Below the pieces are notes generated by a model, which saw only the letters and a list, made by a program, of their open reading frames with translations, was not told where the DNA came from and ran no database searches. Position numbers and translations under genes: made by a program. Below are positions 20,721 to 35,414 of a stretch of 39,449 nt of DNA, piece after piece. The stretch's first letter is position 1, and each line of letters starts with the position of its first letter. Source of the stretch: Candidatus Bathyarchaeota archaeon (GTDB taxonomy: Archaea > Thermoproteota > Bathyarchaeia > Bathyarchaeales > Bathycorpusculaceae); contig JAUWJK010000002.1 in NCBI GenBank assembly GCA_030607735.1, positions 1 through 39,449 on the forward strand, written 5' to 3'.

Positions 20721-22232
20721 CTACATTTTTGAATTTTTAAATCTTACGTTTGAAGATAAATCTGAAGAGAGATAAGAAGTAATTATTAACTCCATGTTTT
20801 TTTTAGCATCAGAGAGTTTTTGATTTAGATTTTTTAGAGTTTTTTGAGCAGCTTTGATTTGTTTCTTTTTTGCCGATAAGGCTCTTTTTACTTCAACTGG
20901 TGCAGGTCCACCTCTTACATTATGAGTACCAACAATTTTTTGTGGATTAATACAAAAAGAGATTTGTTTAGCTGAAATTTCTATTTTACAACTAGAAAAC
21001 ATTTTAGAAGTGTTTTGAATCATTTCAGGTGTTAGATCTACAAATGTTAATTTTTTAGTTATTAGCGAGTTTACCAATGTTCCTACAATTTTGTGGGCTG
21101 TCCGGAATGGTATGTGATATTCTCTAGTAAGTAAATTTGCGATTTCAGTTGCTGCTACAAAACTAGGTTTGGATTTTTCCGAGATATCAGCTATTACTTT
21201 CAAATTGGGTAATAGATTAGTCAGAATAATCAATGAAGAATCAACAATTTTGATTGAATTCCAAAGATAAGGAGTAATTTGTTGGAAATCAAGATTATAG
21301 GTTGTCGGCAATCCTTTGAGAGTTGAGGTAGCAGCAACAAAATCTCCCAAGATTCTACTAGCGTTTGCCCGTATGATTTCAAGTAATTCGGGATTTTTCT
21401 TTTGTGGCATAATACTACTAGTTGAAGCAAAATTATCTGGTAAATCAATAACACCAAAATCTGTAGAACTCCAAATAATCAGATCTTCAGATAGGCGACT
21501 TAGAGTCACTGAAATAAGAGTAAAAACAGCTATGGTTTCTATAATAAAATCTCGACTTCCCACTGCATCGATCGAGTTCTCTAAAACCTCATCAAATCCT
21601 AAGAGTTCTGCAACTCTGTTTCGATTTATCTGGAAACTTGTTGTGGCTAATGCTCCTGCACCTAAAGGACAAAGATTAACTCGTTCATATGTTTGTATGA
21701 GTCTTTGTAAATTTCGCTCTAGATTATCAATAAATGATAAGAGATAATGTGCAAATGTAACTGGTTGAGCAGGCTGGAGATGAGTATACTCCAAGATGAG
21801 AGTGTTAATATGATTTTCAGCTGTTTCAACTAAACTTTTTTGCATTTTCAGTATAATATTGACTGAATTAAGCAACTGTTTTCTAAGCAGTACACGAATT
21901 GCTGTAACAACTTGATCGTTTCTACTTTTAGCTATATGAAGATTACCCCCCACCTCTTCGCCAGTATCTTTCAATATTGATTCTTCAATAGCCATATGAA
22001 CGTCTTCACCGGAGAGAGCAGAAGGATTATCTAAAAGTTTTTTTAAGGCGCTAAGAAGAGCAACTCCATCTGATTGTTTAATTATTTCCTGCTCAATTAA
22101 CATTATCACATGAGCTTGATTAATGCGTATAGCAGCATCTGTTAGTACTAAATCATCTTTGAATGAAGATGTAAAACTAGCGACATCTTCTCGAACAGAT
22201 TTTAATCTTCCACCTCTCAACAAGTTTGACAA
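20721..22232 (-). CDS. argH: Argininosuccinate lyase
   Basis: Cleaves argininosuccinate to arginine and fumarate, last step of arginine synthesis. Fumarase/aspartase superfamily signature SSIMPQKKNP is at 272-281, with SRNDQ (103-107) and THLQPAQPVTFAHY around 150-163 as the other two conserved regions. At 503 residues it is somewhat longer than many homologues; the extra length is a Lys-rich, probably coiled-coil C-terminal tail from about 440. The TTG start has GAGGGA upstream. Second gene of the argG-argH-carA-carB operon. Confidence 0.95.
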   Translation of the reverse strand: MSNLLRGGRLKSVREDVASFTSSFKDDLVLTDAAIRINQAHVIMLIEQEIIKQSDGVALLSALKKLLDNPSALSGEDVHMAIEESILKDTGEEVGGNLHIAKSRNDQVVTAIRVLLRKQLLNSVNIILKMQKSLVETAENHINTLILEYTHLQPAQPVTFAHYLLSFIDNLERNLQRLIQTYERVNLCPLGAGALATTSFQINRNRVAELLGFDEVLENSIDAVGSRDFIIETIAVFTLISVTLSRLSEDLIIWSSTDFGVIDLPDNFASTSSIMPQKKNPELLEIIRANASRILGDFVAATSTLKGLPTTYNLDFQQITPYLWNSIKIVDSSLIILTNLLPNLKVIADISEKSKPSFVAATEIANLLTREYHIPFRTAHKIVGTLVNSLITKKLTFVDLTPEMIQNTSKMFSSCKIEISAKQISFCINPQKIVGTHNVRGGPAPVEVKRALSAKKKQIKAAQKTLKNLNQKLSDAKKNMELIITSYLSSDLSSNVRFKNSKM

Positions 22233-22261: not shown

Positions 22262-23488
22262 TTACTCTAAGTCAGTTTTAGCCTCCAAATTCTTATTGAC
22301 TTTTTGCCGTAATATATTAGCCATTTTTGTTTGTAAGCCCCATAGTTCAATAAATCCTTTGGAGTATGATTGCTTAAAACCAGTTTTTATGTTATAGTTA
22401 ACCAAGTTTTTATCATAAAGAGATAGTTTTGATGACCGACCAACAACTTGAAAACTGCCTTTATAAAGTTTCATGCGGACCTCACCTTCTACTTTTTCTT
22501 GAGATTTATTGATGAACGCTTCAAGATCTTCTCTAAGTGGATCATTCCAAAGACCTGCATAAACCAAAAAGGTCCATTGAGTATCCACACTTTGTTTAAA
22601 CATAATCTCGTGACGGGTAAGAACCATTTTTTCCAAATCTTTATGAGCTTCAAGCAATACGGTTGCAGCTGGGCATTCGTAGATTTCCCTGGATTTAATG
22701 CCGATTAATCGGTCTTCGATATGATCAATTCTTCCAACACCATGTTGTCCAGCTATTGTATTCAATGTTTTTATAAGTTGAAGTGGTTCCATGACTTCGT
22801 GGTTCAAACTAGTTGGAACACCGGATTCAAATTTTATAGTTACATATTCAGGAACATTTTTCGCCTTTTCAGGTGAAATTGTCCATTCAAACGCATCTTC
22901 AGGGGGTTCTTGATTAGCATCTTCCAAAATTCCACATTCAATTGAACGTCCCCATATACTTTGATCAATACTATATTTTTTAGCAGCTTTAGAAACAGAT
23001 ATTCCTTTTTTTAATGCATAGGCAATTTCTTCTTCGCGGGTCATGTTCCATTCCCGAATTGGCGCAATTATTTTTAAATTAGGAGCTAGTGAAGCAAAAG
23101 AAATATCGAAACGTACTTGATCGTTTCCTTTACCAGTACAACCATGAGCTAGGCCTGTGGCATTATGTTTTTTTGCAACTTCCACCATTTTATAAACGAT
23201 AAGTGGACGAGACAAACTTGTACTGATTGGGTATTTTCCTTCATATAGAGCGTTAGCTTTTATTGCTGGAAAAACATAATTTTTTGCAAATTCTTTTGTA
23301 ACATCAATTGAATAATGTTTTAAAACGCCTAATTTGTTAGCTTTTTCTGCTATTTCTTTCAAATTTTCTTGTTGGCCAACATTAACTGTAACCGTTATTA
23401 CTTCTGCTGCATATTTTTCTTGGAGCCATTTGATTAGAACAGAAGTATCTAATCCACCTGAATATGCCAACACAATTTTTTCTGTCAT
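22262..23488 (-). CDS. argG: Argininosuccinate synthase
   Basis: Condenses citrulline and aspartate with ATP cleavage to AMP. The N-type ATP pyrophosphatase loop AYSGGLDTS is at residues 8-16, followed by EVITVTVNVGQQ, then AHGCTGKGNDQVRF and the substrate-binding SIWGRSIECG. I start at the ATG at 23488 (408 residues) rather than an upstream in-frame start 45 nt earlier, because GGGGA lies nine bases before this ATG and the protein then begins MTEKIVLAYSGG as usual. First gene of the arg-car operon, divergent from the ACT regulator. Its SD lies in an inverted repeat. Confidence 0.97.
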   Translation of the reverse strand: MTEKIVLAYSGGLDTSVLIKWLQEKYAAEVITVTVNVGQQENLKEIAEKANKLGVLKHYSIDVTKEFAKNYVFPAIKANALYEGKYPISTSLSRPLIVYKMVEVAKKHNATGLAHGCTGKGNDQVRFDISFASLAPNLKIIAPIREWNMTREEEIAYALKKGISVSKAAKKYSIDQSIWGRSIECGILEDANQEPPEDAFEWTISPEKAKNVPEYVTIKFESGVPTSLNHEVMEPLQLIKTLNTIAGQHGVGRIDHIEDRLIGIKSREIYECPAATVLLEAHKDLEKMVLTRHEIMFKQSVDTQWTFLVYAGLWNDPLREDLEAFINKSQEKVEGEVRMKLYKGSFQVVGRSSKLSLYDKNLVNYNIKTGFKQSYSKGFIELWGLQTKMANILRQKVNKNLEAKTDLE

Positions 23489-23497
23489 TTTTTGCTT

Positions 23498-23538
23498 CCC
23501 CTGTTTCTTAAGAGAAATTATTCCAATTACCACAGGGG
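23498..23538 (-). promoter_or_regulatory. Inverted repeat covering the argG ribosome-binding site
   Basis: CCCCTGT (23498-23504) and ACAGGGG (23532-23538) form an exact 7-bp inverted repeat with a 27-nt spacer in the argG-regulator divergent region. On the argG strand the downstream arm contains the SD (GGGGA). If the transcript starts upstream of 23538, the 5' arm could pair with and mask the SD; if it starts within the repeat, the element could instead act as a DNA operator. Candidate TATA boxes on the minus strand are near 23570-23579 and 23544-23551, which leaves both readings open. Confidence 0.4.
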
Positions 23539-28093: not shown

Positions 28094-28130
28094 CTAAATT
28101 AGGAATAACTTAGTTATTTTCCTATTTTAG
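28094..28130. terminator. Hairpin between converging lysC and lysK
   Basis: A long imperfect hairpin: arm 28094-28110 pairs with 28112-28130, interrupted by one mismatch and a two-base bulge, with a one-base loop. It begins 6 nt after the lysC stop and spans the lysK stop and its last codons on the other strand. Its symmetry lets it act for both transcripts, as a terminator or a 3'-end stabiliser. The only long T-runs nearby are short and AT-mixed. Confidence 0.5.
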
Positions 28131-29226
28131 CATGTAACTCACACAATTTAAGAATAGCTTTTTCATAGACTTCTATACTTTTTAGATAGTCGCGAATTTT
28201 TATGTGTTCATCTTTAGTGTGGTCTAAATGAGAATCGCCAGGACCATATGTAACTATTGGAGATTGAATAGCACGACCGAGAATATTCATATCCCCAGTA
28301 CCAGTTTTCCTCAGCAAAACGGCAGGTTTTTTGTTAATTGTTCTTATTGAAAAAGAAAGAGCTCTAACCAAAGGAGAAGTTTTATCCACCTCAAAAGGTT
28401 CATTTGAATCTTCTATTGAATAAGTAATCTTTACTTTTGGATTATCAAATAAATATTTTTCAATCACTTTCTTTATTTCACTGAAAACTTCTGTTGAAGA
28501 AGTTTGAGGAGGAATTCTAAGATCAACATGCATTTCGCTTTTAAAAGGTATTACAGAATTAGCAAATCCACCAATTACCTGTGTTAGACAAGCTGTAATT
28601 GAATTATATGGACTGGACGGAATTTTCGCTGAAGGAAATTTTTGGCTAATTTTTTCCCAAAGCTCAAAAGCTTTTTCAAGAGCATTTTCATAGGCCCATG
28701 GTGTAGAGGAATGCCCAGTTTCTGTTTTACAAATTATTTTTATGTGCAGATTGCCCTTGTAACCAATGGTTATATTTCCTACGCCACTAGGTTCTCCAAA
28801 TATAGCATAATCAGCAGAAATACCATCATTTATTAAATTCTTGACTCCTCGACTAGTTGCTTCTTCTTCAACGACACTAGCGACCACTAGTTTAGCTTTG
28901 AAATTTGGATTTTTCGCAACAGATGATGATGCAAGTATCATCGAAGCTAAGGGACCTTTTGCGTCAACTGCACCTCTTGCATAGATTTTGCCGTTCTCAA
29001 TACGCAATGGAAGATGACCAACAACAGTATCCATGTGTCCACATAGAAGTATTGTCGGTTTACCCACACCAATTTCTCCTATGACATTACCGACAGAGTC
29101 TTTTTTTACAGTAAACCCCAACTTTTCCATTTCTATAACAAGGAAGTCTGAGATGGCTTCTTCACAACCGGAAGGACTGAAAATTCCTAACAAGTTAGTT
29201 AAGAATCGTACTTTTGGATCACCCAT
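28114..29226 (-). CDS. lysK: [LysW]-lysine/ornithine hydrolase
   Basis: M20-family metallopeptidase that releases lysine (or ornithine) from the C-terminal glutamate of LysW. Metal ligands are seen in CGHMDTVVG (H64, D66), GAVDAKGP (D88) and VVEEEATSRG (E120-E122). GEPSG and GYKGNLHIKI belong to the second half and lid domain. The ATG at 29226 (370 residues) is chosen because GGAGA lies eight bases before it; a start nine codons upstream is possible. It overlaps lysJ by eight bases (ATGGGTGA). Last gene of the lysWXYZJK operon. Confidence 0.93.
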   Translation of the reverse strand: MGDPKVRFLTNLLGIFSPSGCEEAISDFLVIEMEKLGFTVKKDSVGNVIGEIGVGKPTILLCGHMDTVVGHLPLRIENGKIYARGAVDAKGPLASMILASSSVAKNPNFKAKLVVASVVEEEATSRGVKNLINDGISADYAIFGEPSGVGNITIGYKGNLHIKIICKTETGHSSTPWAYENALEKAFELWEKISQKFPSAKIPSSPYNSITACLTQVIGGFANSVIPFKSEMHVDLRIPPQTSSTEVFSEIKKVIEKYLFDNPKVKITYSIEDSNEPFEVDKTSPLVRALSFSIRTINKKPAVLLRKTGTGDMNILGRAIQSPIVTYGPGDSHLDHTKDEHIKIRDYLKSIEVYEKAILKLCELHAKIGK

Positions 29227-30406
29227 TTTGTTTGTCTCCAAGTATTGAATCAATAACAGCTATAGCTTGATCAATTTGATCTTTGGTAACTACAAGTGGA
29301 GGTAAAAAACGCAAAACATTTCGTCCTGCATTCAAAATAAGTAAACCTTTGTCTGAAGCTTTTTGAATAATTTTCGTGACATCTTTTCTCAGTTCAATAG
29401 CTAACATTAGACCCAAACCTCGAACTTCTTTAATTGTCTTATATTTGTTTTTTAGTTCTTCTAATTTATTTACAAAATATTTTCCGTTAGTAGCAGCATT
29501 CTCCACTAGCATCTCTTTTTGAAGAGCTGTAATTGCTGCACTTGCAGCGGCACAAACTACTGGACCACCACTAAAAGTGCTGGTATGTTCGCCAGTTTTA
29601 AGAGAGGACATTATATGATCTTTGGCCACTGTTATTCCGATGGGTAATCCGCCTGCAAATGGTTTTGCTAAGCATAAAATATCAGGCGTAATTTTCCAAT
29701 GCTCAAATGCAAATAATTTGCCTGTTCTACCAAAACTTGTCTGGACTTCATCTAGAATTAAGAGAAGTTTATTCTTGTCACATATTTCTCTAACTTCTTG
29801 AAGAAATCCCTTTGAAGGAACACGAACTCCGCCCTCACCACGAATTGGTTCAATCAAAACTGCTGCAGTATTTTCAGTTATAGCTTTCTGCAATTTATCT
29901 AAGTTATCAGGAGGAACATGTTTAAAGTCTGGAACCAAAGGCTCAAAAGGTTTACGATATTTTTTATCCCAAGTAGCAGATAGAGCACCCATAGTTTTAC
30001 CATGATATGCACCCATAAAAGCAATTATTTCAGTTTTTCCAGAGAATTTTCGGGCTAACTTTATTGCACATTCAACAGATTCTGCGCCACTGTTTGATAG
30101 AAAAATCTTATTTAGTCCTTTAGGAGTTAGATGGACAAGTTTTTGAAGTAATTCAGCACGTTTTGGATTATAAAAACCTGAATGGCACGAAATCAAGTTG
30201 GATGCTTGTTCATTTATCGCTTTCACTATTTTTGGGTGGGAATGACCTAAAGCTGCAACTCCATAACTGCTTGTAAAATCTAAATATTTTTTCCCTTGGA
30301 TATCCCATACTATAGCACCCTTTCCTTTAACGAGAACCAATGGTCTTTTTGCATAAACATTTGCCATTAAGTTATTTTCTATATCAAAAATTTCTTGTTC
30401 ATTCAT
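29219..30406 (-). CDS. lysJ: [LysW]-aminoadipate semialdehyde / glutamate semialdehyde aminotransferase
   Basis: Class III PLP aminotransferase (ArgD/LysJ family), 395 residues. SNSGAESVECAIKLAR (about 104-119), the AYHGKTMGALSATW stretch, LDEVQTSFGRTG (D219) and the PLP lysine K248 in CLAKPFAGGLP are all present. In the pathway it aminates the LysW-bound semialdehyde to LysW-lysine or LysW-ornithine, with glutamate as donor. Assignment to the LysW pathway comes from its place between lysZ and lysK. The start overlaps lysZ by eight bases (ATGAATGA); a second ATG four bases in is out of frame. Confidence 0.94.
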   Translation of the reverse strand: MNEQEIFDIENNLMANVYAKRPLVLVKGKGAIVWDIQGKKYLDFTSSYGVAALGHSHPKIVKAINEQASNLISCHSGFYNPKRAELLQKLVHLTPKGLNKIFLSNSGAESVECAIKLARKFSGKTEIIAFMGAYHGKTMGALSATWDKKYRKPFEPLVPDFKHVPPDNLDKLQKAITENTAAVLIEPIRGEGGVRVPSKGFLQEVREICDKNKLLLILDEVQTSFGRTGKLFAFEHWKITPDILCLAKPFAGGLPIGITVAKDHIMSSLKTGEHTSTFSGGPVVCAAASAAITALQKEMLVENAATNGKYFVNKLEELKNKYKTIKEVRGLGLMLAIELRKDVTKIIQKASDKGLLILNAGRNVLRFLPPLVVTKDQIDQAIAVIDSILGDKQNG

Positions 30407-31208
30407 TGCTAATCACAGTTCCACGTTTATGATTCAAAGCTTTAGAAATTGGCATTTTGCCTAAACCAGATGTTATTATTACTTCAGGTACACCTTTATT
30501 GAGTGCGTCCTGGGATGCATGGATCTTAGTACTCATTCCCTGTCCAATCTCTGAAAGAATAGATTTGACCTCAGAAATTTTAAGTTTGGAAACAGGGTTT
30601 CCTTTCAAAAACAAGCCTTCAACATCAGTTAATAATATTAAACGATCAGCAGCAAGACTACAAGCAATAGCAGCAGCAGTTCTATCTCCATCAACATTAA
30701 GTGATTCAAATTCTTCACTAATTGCAATTGGAGTTACAACTGGAGTGTAGTTTTTTTCGAGCAAAGATTTCAACAGTTCCGTATTTACTTCAGTTATCCT
30801 TCCGGTATATCCACCATCAATTACTTTCTTCCGACCTCTTTTATCAACAATAATTAAACGTTTTTTCCGTTTTGCTTTCAGAAGAAAACCATCTAAACCA
30901 GATAGTCCAATAGCAAATATTCCTTGTCTCTCAAAAGCTAAAACTATGTTCTTGTTCATCTTTCCAGCCATTACCATACAAAAAATCTCCATAGTTTCTT
31001 TGTCAGTATATCGACTTCTGAATCCTTGAGGAGAGACTACAAATTTCTGTTCTTTACCTAGGCGTGATGCTACTTCAGTGACTTCGGAACCACCTCCATG
31101 AACAAAAACGATTTTATGATCTTTTAGTAATTCTTTTACATCTTCAACCAGATTTAAAGAAGTACCATCTTTTAGAATACTTCCACCTAATTTAGCAACT
31201 ATCAACAT
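30399..31208 (-). CDS. lysZ: [LysW]-aminoadipate/glutamate kinase
   Basis: Amino-acid kinase family (ArgB/LysZ), 269 residues; phosphorylates the side-chain carboxylate of LysW-bound aminoadipate or glutamate. Seen: AKLGGSILKDG at the N-terminus, VHGGGSEVTEVA, a YTDKETMEIFCMVMAGK helix, GGYTGRITEVNTELLK, LNVDGDRTAAAIA, LLTDVEGLF and the GQGMSTKIHAS loop that binds the nucleotide. YTDKE and MVMAGKMNK are the wording I associate with archaeal LysZ rather than bacterial ArgB. The ATG lies 6 nt after the lysY stop. Confidence 0.94.
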   Translation of the reverse strand: MLIVAKLGGSILKDGTSLNLVEDVKELLKDHKIVFVHGGGSEVTEVASRLGKEQKFVVSPQGFRSRYTDKETMEIFCMVMAGKMNKNIVLAFERQGIFAIGLSGLDGFLLKAKRKKRLIIVDKRGRKKVIDGGYTGRITEVNTELLKSLLEKNYTPVVTPIAISEEFESLNVDGDRTAAAIACSLAADRLILLTDVEGLFLKGNPVSKLKISEVKSILSEIGQGMSTKIHASQDALNKGVPEVIITSGLGKMPISKALNHKRGTVISNE

Positions 31209-31214
31209 ATTAAA

Positions 31215-32267
31215 TCACATCGGATGAAAACCAATGCTGTTTAGACCTGTTTCTTCAGGAACGCCCATAAGTATATTTAAACATTGAACACCTTGACCTG
31301 AAGCACCTTTAACCATGTTGTCGATGGCCGAGAAAACTATCAGACGATTAGCCCGCGAATCAATCTCAAATCCAATGTCACAAATGTTTGTTCCCAGTAC
31401 AATTTTTGGGTTTGGTAATGTGTATGGGCCTCGTTTACATTTAACTAAACGAATAAACGGTTCATCTGAATAATAATCTCGAAAAACTTTCCAAACATCT
31501 TTATTCGTAAAAGATTGTTGTGGAAAAAGATGAATTGTCGAAAGAATACCTCTAACCATATTTACTGCATGAGGTGTAAATGAAACTAGGCAATTACTTT
31601 TTGTTAAATTATTTAGCTCTTGTTGAACTTCGGCGATATGTCGATGTCCATTGACTTTGTATGGACGTACTCCACCAAATCTTTCAGGATGATGGGAGAC
31701 TATCGTAGGTTTACCACCTCCGCCTGAAGATCCTACTTTTAGATCTACAATTATCTTTTCTGTTTCAACAAGTCCTGCATTAACTATTGGTGCTAATCCC
31801 AAAATAGTAGCTGTTGCCATACATCCTGGACACGCGACTAAAGTCGCGTTCTTAATAGCGTCTCTATGAAGCTCTGGCAATCCATAAACAGCAATCTTGA
31901 GAAGATCAGAGTTAGAATGTGTCCACCCATACCATTTTTCATAATCATCCGGATTTTTTAGTCTAAAATCAGCACTCATATCAATAACTTTTAGCCCTAC
32001 TTCTAGAAGTCCTGGAATTAGATTCACTGCACCACCATGTGGAGTAGCTGTAAAAACAATGTCACAATTTTTTTGAAGTTCAGAAATATTTTGAGGAACA
32101 AATTTCAACTGAGTTACACCTCTAAGATTGGGATGTATATTAAAGACATAATCACCAACACTCTGACGAGATGTGACCATAGTGACTTCGATGTTTGGAT
32201 GGAGAAGCAATAAACGAAGAAGTTCTCCACCAACATATCCTGAACCACCTATTATTCCAATTTTCAA
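31215..32267 (-). CDS. lysY: [LysW]-aminoadipyl/glutamyl phosphate reductase
   Basis: ArgC/LysY family NADPH-dependent reductase forming the LysW-bound semialdehyde. The Rossmann loop is GIIGGSGYVGGELLRLL. The catalytic cysteine is in VACPGCMATATILGLAP, with the general-base histidine region SHHPERFGG and GHRHIAEVQQEL downstream. I place the start at TTG 32267 (350 residues, beginning MKIGIIGG) since AGGTGAT stands four bases before it, as at hom; the GTG three codons upstream overlaps that SD. It follows lysX by a short gap of about 22 nt. Confidence 0.94.
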   Translation of the reverse strand: MKIGIIGGSGYVGGELLRLLLLHPNIEVTMVTSRQSVGDYVFNIHPNLRGVTQLKFVPQNISELQKNCDIVFTATPHGGAVNLIPGLLEVGLKVIDMSADFRLKNPDDYEKWYGWTHSNSDLLKIAVYGLPELHRDAIKNATLVACPGCMATATILGLAPIVNAGLVETEKIIVDLKVGSSGGGGKPTIVSHHPERFGGVRPYKVNGHRHIAEVQQELNNLTKSNCLVSFTPHAVNMVRGILSTIHLFPQQSFTNKDVWKVFRDYYSDEPFIRLVKCKRGPYTLPNPKIVLGTNICDIGFEIDSRANRLIVFSAIDNMVKGASGQGVQCLNILMGVPEETGLNSIGFHPM

Positions 32268-32289
32268 GATTATCACCTAAAGAGTATTA

Positions 32290-33468
32290 TCATATTAGAC
32301 TTTTAGCACCTTTTATCAACGGAATTGCAACATTAATTCCAGCAATTAACCGTGTATGCTCCCAGAATTCTGGACAAGAATTCGATTCATGAAAAACAAT
32401 AGCATCTTTATTTTTTTCTATGCTTTCATCAATAATATTTTTAACTTTTTGATAAGGTTTAGTAACCATATAGTCTTGGAAAGATTTTTCTAGTTTATCA
32501 TTCCACAAAGAGAAGTTACTTTGTTTATGTTTCTCAGTTTTAATTTTCCGTATTGACTCAAAAACAGTTAACGCTTTTTCAAGTTCAAGTTTCAGTTGAT
32601 AGTCGTCAACAAGTTTATTTTCCTGAATATTTATCATTCCATCTAGGGCAAAAAGCCAAGCTTCTTGATCTTTACTAAGCGCTTTGCCACTTTTAATTGA
32701 TAAATCTATGATATTGGAGGGTAGTTTTGCAGCAAAAACGGCGTTTCCTAGATAGGTATTTGTTCGAAAATCTTTAAGTCCAGCCCGTGCTAGCGCTACT
32801 GGATGACAAATTGGAAACTTTCCTTGTTCTTTATATACTATTATTCTTAAATCAAAAAACCATTTTTTAATATACTCCTGGGCAACGATACCTATGGGAT
32901 TTATTATCGATGGCTTAGTTTCTCGAATATTGAAAAGTAGTTCTTCTCGATTGTTTGAAAGCAGCATTCCTTTTCCATGAGTGCCAGAATCAGGTTTTAT
33001 TACTATTCCTTCATCAAGAAATAGAGTATCTTGAAAAAGATCCGCAATATCAAGTTCATTGTGAAGGATTTTTCCATTTTTTAGCATGTTTGAAGAGTCA
33101 CAAGGAATAAAAACTGTTTTAGGAATAGGAATTCCTTCTTTCCATAAATGAAGTAGAGTTCTTAATTTGCTGTAACAAATAAACTCAATAGAAGAGGAGT
33201 TTACAGTTTTTTTACCTAAGAGTTCAAAAAGGTAACCCGCTTGAAGTCTTCTGTTCTTGCTTTGAGCTCTATTTAAAACGACTTTGGTATCTTTTATAAT
33301 CTGTGTAAAAACTTTACCCTTGGTTTTAGCTAAGAAATTATTGTTGAATATCGAGAACGCAATTTTTCGAAATGGTATAAAGGTCAAGTCTACTCCAAGT
33401 TTTTTAGCAGTTAGTTTTATCCCCATTTCATCTGTTTCAGAACGTTCGTATAGAAGGGCAATGCTCAT
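32290..33468 (-). CDS. lysX: LysX-type ATP-grasp ligase, divergent, with large insertion
   Basis: Joins the amino group of 2-aminoadipate (LysX) or glutamate (ArgX) to the C-terminal Glu of LysW. Residues 1-245 follow the family: VVLNRAQSKNRRLQAGYLFE, GIPIPKTVFIPCD, the ATP-grasp IVIKPDSGTHGKGM and VAQEYIKKWFFDLRIIVY. Metal ligands D276 (FALDGM), E361 and N363 (FHESNSCPEF) remain. However, it has 392 residues against about 280 normally. Most of the surplus is a charged helical insert, about 280-354, between the metal-binding D and E. The loop usually reading NTARGG is NTYLGN (237-242). The start is ATG with GGAGAT eight bases upstream. Its place between lysW and lysY supports the role; substrate is unsettled. 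Confidence 0.85.
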   Translation of the reverse strand: MSIALLYERSETDEMGIKLTAKKLGVDLTFIPFRKIAFSIFNNNFLAKTKGKVFTQIIKDTKVVLNRAQSKNRRLQAGYLFELLGKKTVNSSSIEFICYSKLRTLLHLWKEGIPIPKTVFIPCDSSNMLKNGKILHNELDIADLFQDTLFLDEGIVIKPDSGTHGKGMLLSNNREELLFNIRETKPSIINPIGIVAQEYIKKWFFDLRIIVYKEQGKFPICHPVALARAGLKDFRTNTYLGNAVFAAKLPSNIIDLSIKSGKALSKDQEAWLFALDGMINIQENKLVDDYQLKLELEKALTVFESIRKIKTEKHKQSNFSLWNDKLEKSFQDYMVTKPYQKVKNIIDESIEKNKDAIVFHESNSCPEFWEHTRLIAGINVAIPLIKGAKSLI

Positions 33469-33548: not shown

Positions 33549-33725
33549 TTACTCGCCCCAGTCTTCTCCCTCGATAGTTAATTCTTGTAATTCTATACAC
33601 CCATCTTTAATTTCCTTTACTTCGAGTTCAAGTCCGCAACTCTCACAGCTAACAATTTCACCTTTTTCTGCATCAACTGGAATTGATAGAGTTGTATCAC
33701 AATCGGGACAGGTATTTTTATTCAT
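33549..33725 (-). CDS. lysW: LysW amino-group carrier protein
   Basis: Small acidic carrier that protects the alpha-amino group of the pathway intermediate by an isopeptide-like bond to its C-terminal glutamate, and presents it to LysX, LysZ, LysY, LysJ and LysK. The 58-residue product has a zinc knuckle with C6-P-D-C9 and C27-E-S-C30-G, many Asp/Glu, and the hallmark C-terminus EDWGE. The ATG at 33725 is preferred over one 15 codons upstream because GAGGTGA lies about five bases before it and the N-terminus then starts just ahead of the first zinc ligand. First gene of the operon; divergent from the Lrp-family gene. Confidence 0.97.
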   Translation of the reverse strand: MNKNTCPDCDTTLSIPVDAEKGEIVSCESCGLELEVKEIKDGCIELQELTIEGEDWGE

Positions 33726-33855: not shown

Positions 33856-34018
33856 GGGGATTGTTGTCCCATTTAGAACAAAAAAACTTTTGAATTTACG
33901 AATTTCGAATAATAAAAAAGAAATAACATCTGAAAAAAAATTAAAACCTAAATTTTTAGTTAAAATAATTCAGAAAGCGTTAAATTTTTCTGTTCACAAG
34001 AAATACCTGGGATCGCAA

Positions 34019-34429
34019 ATGGATGATAAAGATAAACAGATTATACAATTACTAAAGAAAAACGGGAGAGCAAGTTATGGTAATTTAGGTAACAAAGTTG
34101 GACTATCAGAGGGCGCAATTCGAAAAAGAATTAAAACATTAACTAATTCTGGAGTAATAAGAAAGTTTACAGTGAAGATTGGAGAAATAGAAGGCGCAGA
34201 AGCTATCACATTATTAGCAACATCACCATCTTCTCCAACACAAGAGGTTTCAAAAAGAATTAAAGAAATTCCCAATGTCGAAACAATCTACGAAGTCACT
34301 GGTGAGTATGATATCGTTGCTGTTATTACTGGAATGAATGTGGTTGAAGTCAATGAATGTATCGAGAAAATACGAAGAGTAAATGGAATAATGAAAACTA
34401 ATACTATGATAGTTCTACGTAGCCGATAA
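34019..34429 (+). CDS. Lrp/AsnC-family regulator, LysM-like by position
   Basis: 136 residues from the ATG at 34019. The frame stays open 43 codons upstream to a TTG at 33890, but that extension is low-complexity Lys/Asn/Ile and does not resemble the family, whose members start just before the DNA-binding domain. Residues 1-55 form the helix-turn-helix: MDDKDKQIIQLLKKNGRASY, then LGNKVGLSEGAIRKRIKTL. Residues about 70-136 form the ligand-sensing RAM domain, with VETIYEVTGEYDIVAVITG. It is divergent from lysW, the same arrangement as the lysine-responsive LysM of Sulfolobus, so a lysine- or arginine-sensing role is likely. Confidence 0.9.
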   Translation: MDDKDKQIIQLLKKNGRASYGNLGNKVGLSEGAIRKRIKTLTNSGVIRKFTVKIGEIEGAEAITLLATSPSSPTQEVSKRIKEIPNVETIYEVTGEYDIVAVITGMNVVEVNECIEKIRRVNGIMKTNTMIVLRSR

Positions 34430-34568: not shown

Positions 34569-35414
34569 ATGGCAAAATATTCTGCTTTGTGCATAAGAAC
34601 CAAATATTGGAGTCCTGGAGAAGATTACTTAAGTATTATTGTCGAATCTATTAAAAAAAATGTGAAAAATAATGATTATGTTATTTTATCTGAAAAAGCA
34701 ATTTCAACTGCAATGGGCAATTACATCGATGAAAATATCATCAACGTGAGCTTAACCGCAAAATTGATTTCACGTTTTTGGATGCGGATTAATTGGGGAT
34801 ATATTCTTGGTTTTTTATGTCATTTCGGTAGAAGACTAATCCAAAGACTCAGAGAATATCCTCTTGATGAAGGAAGTCGACATAAACAAATAATCTTACA
34901 GTACGCAGGATTTTGGGAAGCTTTAATGTGGGGTTCAGAAGGGGGAATTGATGGATCAAACCTGCCGTATGCATTTGTTTCTTTACCTTTAAAAAATCCA
35001 ACTAAAATAGCAAAAAAAATCTGTCAAGAAATTCAAAATAAACTTAATAAAAATGTTATTGTAATAATCGTCGACACCGACAAAACATATACGTTTAGAA
35101 ACTTTCATTTTACACCACATTCAAAAACAATAATAGGAATCCATTCTTTTGGAGGGTGGATTGTATATTCAGCCGCCAGAGCACTTAAACTAAAAAAGAA
35201 GTCGACGCCAATAGCCATTGGAGGAAGAATTTTACATACAAAAAAAGCTCTAACAATTGCTAACATTGCCGATAAAGTGAGAGGAGCAGGTACTGGCACA
35301 ACAGTGTGGGATATGGCAGCGAGGTTTAATATCGGAATCACAGAAATGAGTTGGGAAATGATTAAAAATTTTAAACATAAACCAATTGTGATAATAAGAG
35401 AAAAAAATAATTAA
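34569..35414 (+). CDS. CofE-like (F420-0:glutamyl ligase family) protein
   Basis: 281 residues. The family hallmark is EGGIDGSNLP at 124-133, matching the N-A-G-I-D-x-S-N-x-P motif of coenzyme F420-0:L-glutamate ligase (CofE, COG1478). Other matches are VILSEKAISTAMGN near the N-terminus and IVDTDKTYTFRN at about 168-178. True CofE adds glutamates to F420-0 with GTP. This protein has an extra aromatic and hydrophobic segment (about 67-95) and a divergent second half, so it is more likely a paralogue of unknown substrate. A TATA-like TTTTAAATTATTT lies about 50 nt upstream of the ATG. No cofactor-F420 genes are nearby. Confidence 0.72.
   Translation: MAKYSALCIRTKYWSPGEDYLSIIVESIKKNVKNNDYVILSEKAISTAMGNYIDENIINVSLTAKLISRFWMRINWGYILGFLCHFGRRLIQRLREYPLDEGSRHKQIILQYAGFWEALMWGSEGGIDGSNLPYAFVSLPLKNPTKIAKKICQEIQNKLNKNVIVIIVDTDKTYTFRNFHFTPHSKTIIGIHSFGGWIVYSAARALKLKKKSTPIAIGGRILHTKKALTIANIADKVRGAGTGTTVWDMAARFNIGITEMSWEMIKNFKHKPIVIIREKNN

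Follow-up and report, generated by a model that had tools for sequence, protein, structure and literature searches.

Does a long and strongly divergent ATP-grasp protein, encoded in an archaeal operon for carrier-protein-dependent amino acid biosynthesis, act as the LysX/ArgX-type ligase of that pathway, and what is contributed by the segment that makes it longer? The question is raised by a gene located on the minus strand (32290..33468) of the window, that is, the whole stretch of 39,449 nucleotides analysed here, from contig JAUWJK010000002.1 of a Candidatus Bathyarchaeota archaeon (assembly GCA_030607735.1). Its intact open reading frame encodes a LysX/ArgX-like ATP-grasp ligase of 392 amino acids (hereafter, the long form), an assignment supported by structural matches and by a 61-member alignment. 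Solved LysX/ArgX chains contain 273-282 residues (PDB), in agreement with an earlier sequence-only reading in which this protein was described as about 110 residues longer than usual.

Operon and genomic context

The long-form gene stands at the position of LysX in a LysW-X-Y-Z-J-K operon, all the genes of which lie on the same (minus) strand. Directly upstream is located the gene encoding the carrier protein LysW, which ends in EGEDWGE (33549..33725; 65 bits with NF041070, cut-off 75, and above the cut-off of Pfam PF21344); its start was placed at an internal Met, the listed ORF extending to 33770. Downstream appear the genes encoding LysY, an ArgC-type reductase (31215..32276; TIGR01850, 432 bits), LysZ, the [LysW]-aminoadipate/[LysW]-glutamate kinase (30399..31208; NF010662, 300 bits, above cut-off), LysJ, an ArgD-type aminotransferase (29219..30406; TIGR00707, above cut-off), and LysK, of the [LysW]-lysine/ornithine hydrolase type (28114..29253; TIGR01902, above cut-off). 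A LysM-like transcriptional regulator (33890..34429, plus strand; NF040947, 166 bits, cut-off 180) is divergently oriented from the operon. The minus strand also carries the genes for argininosuccinate synthase, ArgG (22262..23533; TIGR00032, 535 bits), and argininosuccinate lyase, ArgH (20721..22232; TIGR00838, 476 bits), both above their cut-offs. The same gene order is found in operons containing ordinary LysX in the same taxonomic order and, therefore, the long form corresponds to LysX by position.

The LysW operon is the last element of an amino acid biosynthesis supercluster that takes up nearly the entire window (567-33770), whose first part includes acetolactate synthase, LeuC/B/A-type enzymes, prephenate dehydratase and dehydrogenase, and shikimate genes, followed by CarA, ArgH, ArgG, ThrC, homoserine dehydrogenase and aspartate kinase. 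An ATP-grasp ORF of 1083 amino acids adjoining CarA is probably CarB. Beside the regulator, a plus-strand ORF of 281 amino acids (34569-35414) encodes a divergent CofE-like protein (CofE being the coenzyme F420-0:glutamate ligase), with a match of 48 residues only and 40 bits against a cut-off of 181.

The insert and the metal-binding residues

Most of the extra length of the protein, about 76 residues, resides in a single insert (residues 280-356; 32401..32631, minus strand), the remainder corresponding mostly to two short N-terminal extensions near residues 42-52 and 121-137. Profile alignment to ordinary LysX proteins of the same order places the insert within the hairpin between the strand bearing Asp276 and that bearing Glu361/Asn363, and these residues align with the D...E-x-N of the ordinary enzymes, confirming the earlier proposal that the insert separates both halves of the metal site. 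Asp276 (32641..32643), a metal ligand by homology, directly precedes the insert and is invariant in 61 sequences. On the other side, residues 360-373 (HESNSCPEFWEHTR; 32350..32391) comprise, according to the alignment, the metal-binding Glu361/Asn363 together with the stretch in which the five-residue specificity motif falls; the metal region reads HESNSCPEF, as had been pointed out, and H360, E361, N363, C365, P366, F368, W369, E370, T372 and R373 are invariant in the 61 long forms. The same 61-sequence alignment shows invariance of the ATP- and metal-binding residues K158, D206, R208, N237, D276, E361 and N363, as well as of D160.

The insert is 75-78 residues long throughout the 61 aligned long forms, and when 43 inserts were aligned alone, K310, F319, W322, L326, E327 and Y339 were invariant. 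Its net charge is near neutral (mean -1, range -8 to +10). Pairwise dN/dS values, restricted to pairs in which synonymous change is unsaturated, range between 0.06 and 0.24 for the insert and between 0.04 and 0.14 for the rest of the protein; thus, the insert is under purifying selection, yet looser than the core, evolving about twice as fast in dN/dS. An AlphaFold2 model of the whole protein, built with the 61-row alignment (mean pLDDT 90.4, pTM 0.90), predicts three helices in the insert (residues 289-310, 319-334 and 337-352), which still fold as a unit when the insert is modelled alone (mean pLDDT 90.6). A Pfam search gave no known domain for the insert above cut-off, and the best structural match obtained with Foldseek had only E = 3.

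None of 66 ordinary LysX/ArgX proteins carries this insert, the few over-long frames among them being due to N-terminal upstream read-through, and the proteins that do carry it form one clade (support 100/100). That the insert results from an assembly or frame error, or from an intron or intein, has practically no probability, since nothing speaks for it beyond the origin of the contig in a metagenome-assembled genome, while the frame is open throughout, the segment is under purifying selection, and the same length and invariant residues recur across numerous assemblies made independently, some of them single-contig genomes.

Altered loops

It has been described that the GSWGR motif of LysX/ArgX recognises the EDWGE tail of LysW, and a five-residue specificity motif has also been defined in these enzymes (PMC10433800). 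GSWGR is conserved in 65 of the 66 ordinary LysX/ArgX proteins. At the equivalent position, established by comparison with these proteins, the window protein reads KPDSGTHGK (residues 158-166; 32971..32997, minus strand), with GTHGK in the place of the motif; nearly all long forms contain G[TS]HG[KRNYL] here, mostly GTHGK/R. Judged by GSWGR, the long form thus falls outside LysX/ArgX. This replacement, overlooked by the sequence-only reading, is, on alignment, a larger change than that of the NTARGG loop, to which the latter had drawn attention.

The loop that is NTARGG or NxALGG in ordinary enzymes indeed reads NTYLGN in the window protein (residues 237-242; 32743..32760, minus strand), as shown by the alignment, and its residues 238-241 are poorly modelled, being the only ones in the whole-protein model with pLDDT <50. 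What is special in it is the change of A to F/Y and that of the final G to N. The replacement of Arg by Leu, in contrast, is ordinary, because NxALGG is present in 19 of the 66 ordinary proteins (NVALGG in the ArgX of Sulfolobus tokodaii), so that the loop is less striking than had been supposed. Finally, the substrate-signature site following the metal motif reads WE[NQH]TR in the long form instead of K/R-G/N-x-x-x, and fits neither type.

Distribution in Bathyarchaeia

In the order to which the source genome belongs, the long form was found in 72 of 163 genomes and an ordinary LysX scoring over cut-off in 25, while the two were never found together (0/163). Taking the class Bathyarchaeia as a whole, 88 of 257 genomes, distributed over several families, contain the long form. 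When about 85,000 species genomes were scanned with two conserved peptides, a design that misses forms without them, 75 loci were recovered, without exception archaeal. Almost all of them bear the titles Bathyarchaeota, Bathycorpusculum or Bathyarchaeum, the remaining ones being titled to phylum only or as 'uncultured archaeon'; within the reach of this two-peptide scan, no long form was found outside Bathyarchaeia-type archaea.

Neither form of LysX scores over cut-off in 66 of the 163 genomes of the order (e.g. G032, G033, G075, G103, G106, G150 and G157). Seven LysX-less genomes were tested for ArgG and all lacked it, genomes that are 95-100% complete included, which suggests arginine auxotrophy or the use of another route.

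Some loci depart from the general organisation. Genome G253 (Zod_Metabat.1465), in which LysA is also present, has two long-form LysX genes, at loci L200 (G253:C42) and L201 (G253:C61), the latter being a solitary LysW-LysX pair. Two long-form genes also appear in the bin796 chromosome (L202/L203, G216:C1), 33 kb apart and neither with a detected adjacent LysW: one precedes LysZ-J-K, without LysY, and the other stands alone beside LysM. In genome G026 (L067 / L149), a tandem pair of LysW genes is located ahead of the long LysX. Genome G024, assigned to family f4, carries an ordinary LysX operon beside ArgG (L083, G024:C181:500-9000), plus LysA; the other f4 genomes with LysX have the long form, and transfer, contamination or misplacement are possible explanations. 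A seemingly truncated long LysX (L082, G016:C1:454000-462500) was discarded as an assembly gap, a run of N following after about 165 residues and then another gene.

Probable identity as a LysW ligase

The current family models do not recognise the long form. With NCBIfam TIGR02144 (LysX_arch) the window protein scores 78.1 bits against a cut-off of 275.6, with TIGR00768 (RimK family) 83 against 143.4, and with MptN 27 against 350. When the whole-protein model was used as query in Foldseek, the top 12 matches were all LysX/ArgX entries, the best solved structures being ArgX with LysW (3vpb), LysX/ArgX (5k2m) and LysX (3vpd), with TM-scores of 0.81-0.88 on the target. A profile of the long-form family retrieved only LysX/ArgX chains from the PDB, with no RimK at E 0.001, and it gave up to 70 bits with ordinary LysX and 0 with MptN-like proteins, none of which appeared at the search threshold.

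The 392-residue protein is the sole LysX-like gene detected in its genome. A hidden ordinary LysX elsewhere was discarded, given that the other RimK-domain matches are accounted for: two are single-domain proteins (MptN-like and MfnD-like) and the remainder belong to larger ATP-grasp proteins.

Low sequence similarity, the equivalog scores below cut-off and the absence of GSWGR could be taken as indications of a RimK-family enzyme adding glutamate to something other than LysW. Such a role is highly improbable for the only LysX candidate of a genome in which LysW is encoded directly upstream, the more so when the slot is kept in nearly all loci, the long form and ordinary LysX exclude each other, and the former co-occurs with ArgG. 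The long form is thus very probably the ligase that acts on LysW in the carrier-protein pathway, in a version peculiar to its lineage that here would serve arginine. Rather than a new system, it represents a known enzyme in variant form, and because GSWGR is absent and the LysX_arch score lies below cut-off, it is better filed as a divergent sister form of LysX/ArgX than as a standard member.

By homology, the reaction would begin with ATP turning the carboxylate of the C-terminal Glu in the EDWGE tail of LysW into an acyl phosphate; attack on the latter by the alpha-amino group of glutamate would give LysW-Glu, aminoadipate being the alternative attacking substrate. LysZ, LysY, LysJ and LysK would then make ornithine, to be converted to arginine by ArgG/ArgH.

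Glutamate and aminoadipate as probable substrates

The source genome encodes a LysA scoring over cut-off, with DapA on the same contig as LysA, and ArgG/ArgH are in the window. Taking into account that no aminoadipate genes adjoin the window operon, it most likely leads from LysW-glutamate to ornithine and arginine; judging from this gene content, the long LysX encoded here most probably attaches glutamate to LysW in the service of arginine synthesis. Within the family of the source genome, 57 genomes have the long form, and 53 of these have a LysA over cut-off; one more has a partial match.

In family f4, by contrast, LysA is present in 0 of 15 long-form genomes. A homocitrate-synthase-like gene adjoins the operon in all 12 f4 long-form genomes with enough flank, and is mostly followed by homoaconitase-like and homoisocitrate-dehydrogenase-like genes, an aminoadipate assignment that rests on position and sequence, because these families also include enzymes of the leucine pathway. 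ArgG was found in 11 of the 14 f4 genomes tested and, their long LysX being a single one, it would serve both substrates; thus, f4 long forms probably use aminoadipate as well as glutamate. A comparable arrangement exists at locus L200 of genome G253, where a single gene run holds a LysW-X-Y-Z-J-K operon with a long LysX and genes resembling those of homocitrate synthase, homoaconitase and homoisocitrate dehydrogenase, although LysA is present in the same genome.

These data bear on the suggestion, made in the sequence-only reading, that the insert might change the choice between aminoadipate and glutamate. The idea that this choice is set by the insert or by the altered loop draws on the proximity of the insert to the metal residues and to the region of the five-residue specificity motif (PMC10433800). 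It is, however, very unlikely, since the same insert and NTxLGN loop are found both in LysA-containing genomes with Arg-type long forms and in LysA-less genomes with aminoadipate-flanked operons, a distribution that contradicts the suggestion and indicates that the insert does not set substrate choice. Moreover, Arg-type and Lys-type long forms can be told apart at no more than eight scattered columns, none of which lies in the NTxLGN loop or in residues 359-392.

Divergence and origin

Comparison of long-form with ordinary genomes gave mean identities of 26% for LysX, 58% for LysY, 53% for LysZ, 55% for LysJ, 43% for LysK and 47% for LysW. Inside each group LysX identity is 60-66%, that is, LysX is as conserved as the neighbouring genes. 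Only LysX, therefore, has been replaced or remodelled within the operon.

The single clade comprising all the long forms is joined to the tree by a stem 3.6 changes per site long. In a tree built without MptN, for which nearly all long forms had been stripped of the insert, this clade is again placed outside the sampled ordinary LysX/ArgX of Thermoproteota, a position that could be due to long-branch attraction. An ancient third branch and a burst of change in LysX both fit the data, the very long stem being compatible with either. It may tentatively be proposed, with rather more doubt than conviction, that the long form is a third, ancient branch of LysW ligases with a different carrier recognition, in which the three-helix module and the new loops replace the reading of the tail by GSWGR, LysW has co-evolved, and glutamate or aminoadipate is used.

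Role of the insert

The three-helix insert would lengthen the hairpin connecting both metal-binding strands. Its possible participation in holding LysW has to be considered together with changes in LysW itself: in long-form operons this protein contains CGLELEV and, ahead of the tail, LQEL, where ordinary operons have CG[LM]D and PAE, while the tail stays EDWGE with either form of LysX. That these changes track the form of LysX fits co-evolution, as far as can be read from sequences in which shared ancestry is a confounding factor. Docking gains plausibility from the loss of GSWGR and from the alteration of LysW alongside the LysX form, and the fact that LysX has diverged more than any other gene of the operon likewise speaks for a change in carrier recognition. 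It is possible, although slightly short of an even chance, that the insert, the GTHGK loop, the WExTR segment and the LysW changes together constitute an alternative hold on LysW replacing the GSWGR mode.

Simple electrostatic docking is not supported: with a net charge averaging -1, the insert does not present the kind of plain basic surface to which an acidic LysW could bind. Its lack of net positive charge and its faster evolution suit a scaffold or an oligomer contact equally well as LysW binding. Thus, the insert could be a module that joins LysX subunits, or docks LysZ, LysY or LysJ to pass LysW on, having little to do with tail recognition. The near-neutral charge, the evolution faster than that of the core, the predicted folding as an independent helical unit and the location on a hairpin that points away from the metal site are consistent with this role. 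It nevertheless seems rather unlikely, considering that by itself it leaves the loss of GSWGR and the linked LysW changes unexplained, and that the invariance of W322, F319, K310 and Y339 points to a contact that is specific and conserved.

Significance and comparison with known systems

The open-access literature, which leaves out most subscription papers, contained nothing linking Bathyarchaeia with LysX or aminoadipate lysine synthesis, and nothing combining LysX, ATP-grasp and insertion. The long form is real and widespread in Bathyarchaeia, and seems not to have been described before. It fills the LysX slot in a sizeable share of an abundant, uncultured class of archaea, and the members concerned probably make arginine, and in some lineages lysine too, with a strongly remodelled enzyme; the family cut-offs now in use would score such Bathyarchaeia as LysX-less (78 bits vs 275.6). 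The long form also constitutes a natural experiment in carrier-protein recognition by an ATP-grasp ligase once the motif described as reading the carrier tail has been replaced. Furthermore, given that the insert is common to Arg-type and apparently two-substrate members, the glutamate/aminoadipate question can be studied on a second, independent scaffold.

With the RimK and MptN alpha-L-glutamate ligases the long form has the ATP-grasp family in common, although its profile retrieved neither MptN-like proteins at the search threshold nor any RimK from the PDB at E 0.001. LysX from Thermus thermophilus (1uc8, 3vpd) has the same fold, metal ligands and LysW partner with an EDWGE tail, but it is an aminoadipate enzyme of the AAA lysine pathway, lacks the insert and contains the motif NHTMEFKNS. 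The bifunctional LysX/ArgX of Thermococcus kodakarensis (5k2m) has the same fold and acts on two substrates, as we infer for the f4 long forms, whereas it lacks the insert and conserves GSWGR and NTARGG. The best match in both sequence profile and structure is ArgX from Sulfolobus tokodaii (3vpb/3vpc), which has in common with the long form the Leu of the NxALGG loop, the PEF that follows the metal motif and the presumed use of glutamate, and differs from it in the absence of the insert, in GSWGR instead of GTHGK and in KGF instead of WExTR, with 17% identity in the structural alignment. Also comparable are the ordinary LysX/ArgX proteins of Bathyarchaeia from the same order (e.g. L038): they are 284-289 residues long, contain GSWGR and NVARGG and are 26% identical to the long form, a divergence affecting LysX only, and yet they occupy the same slot of the same operon, with the same LysW tail and the same neighbours.
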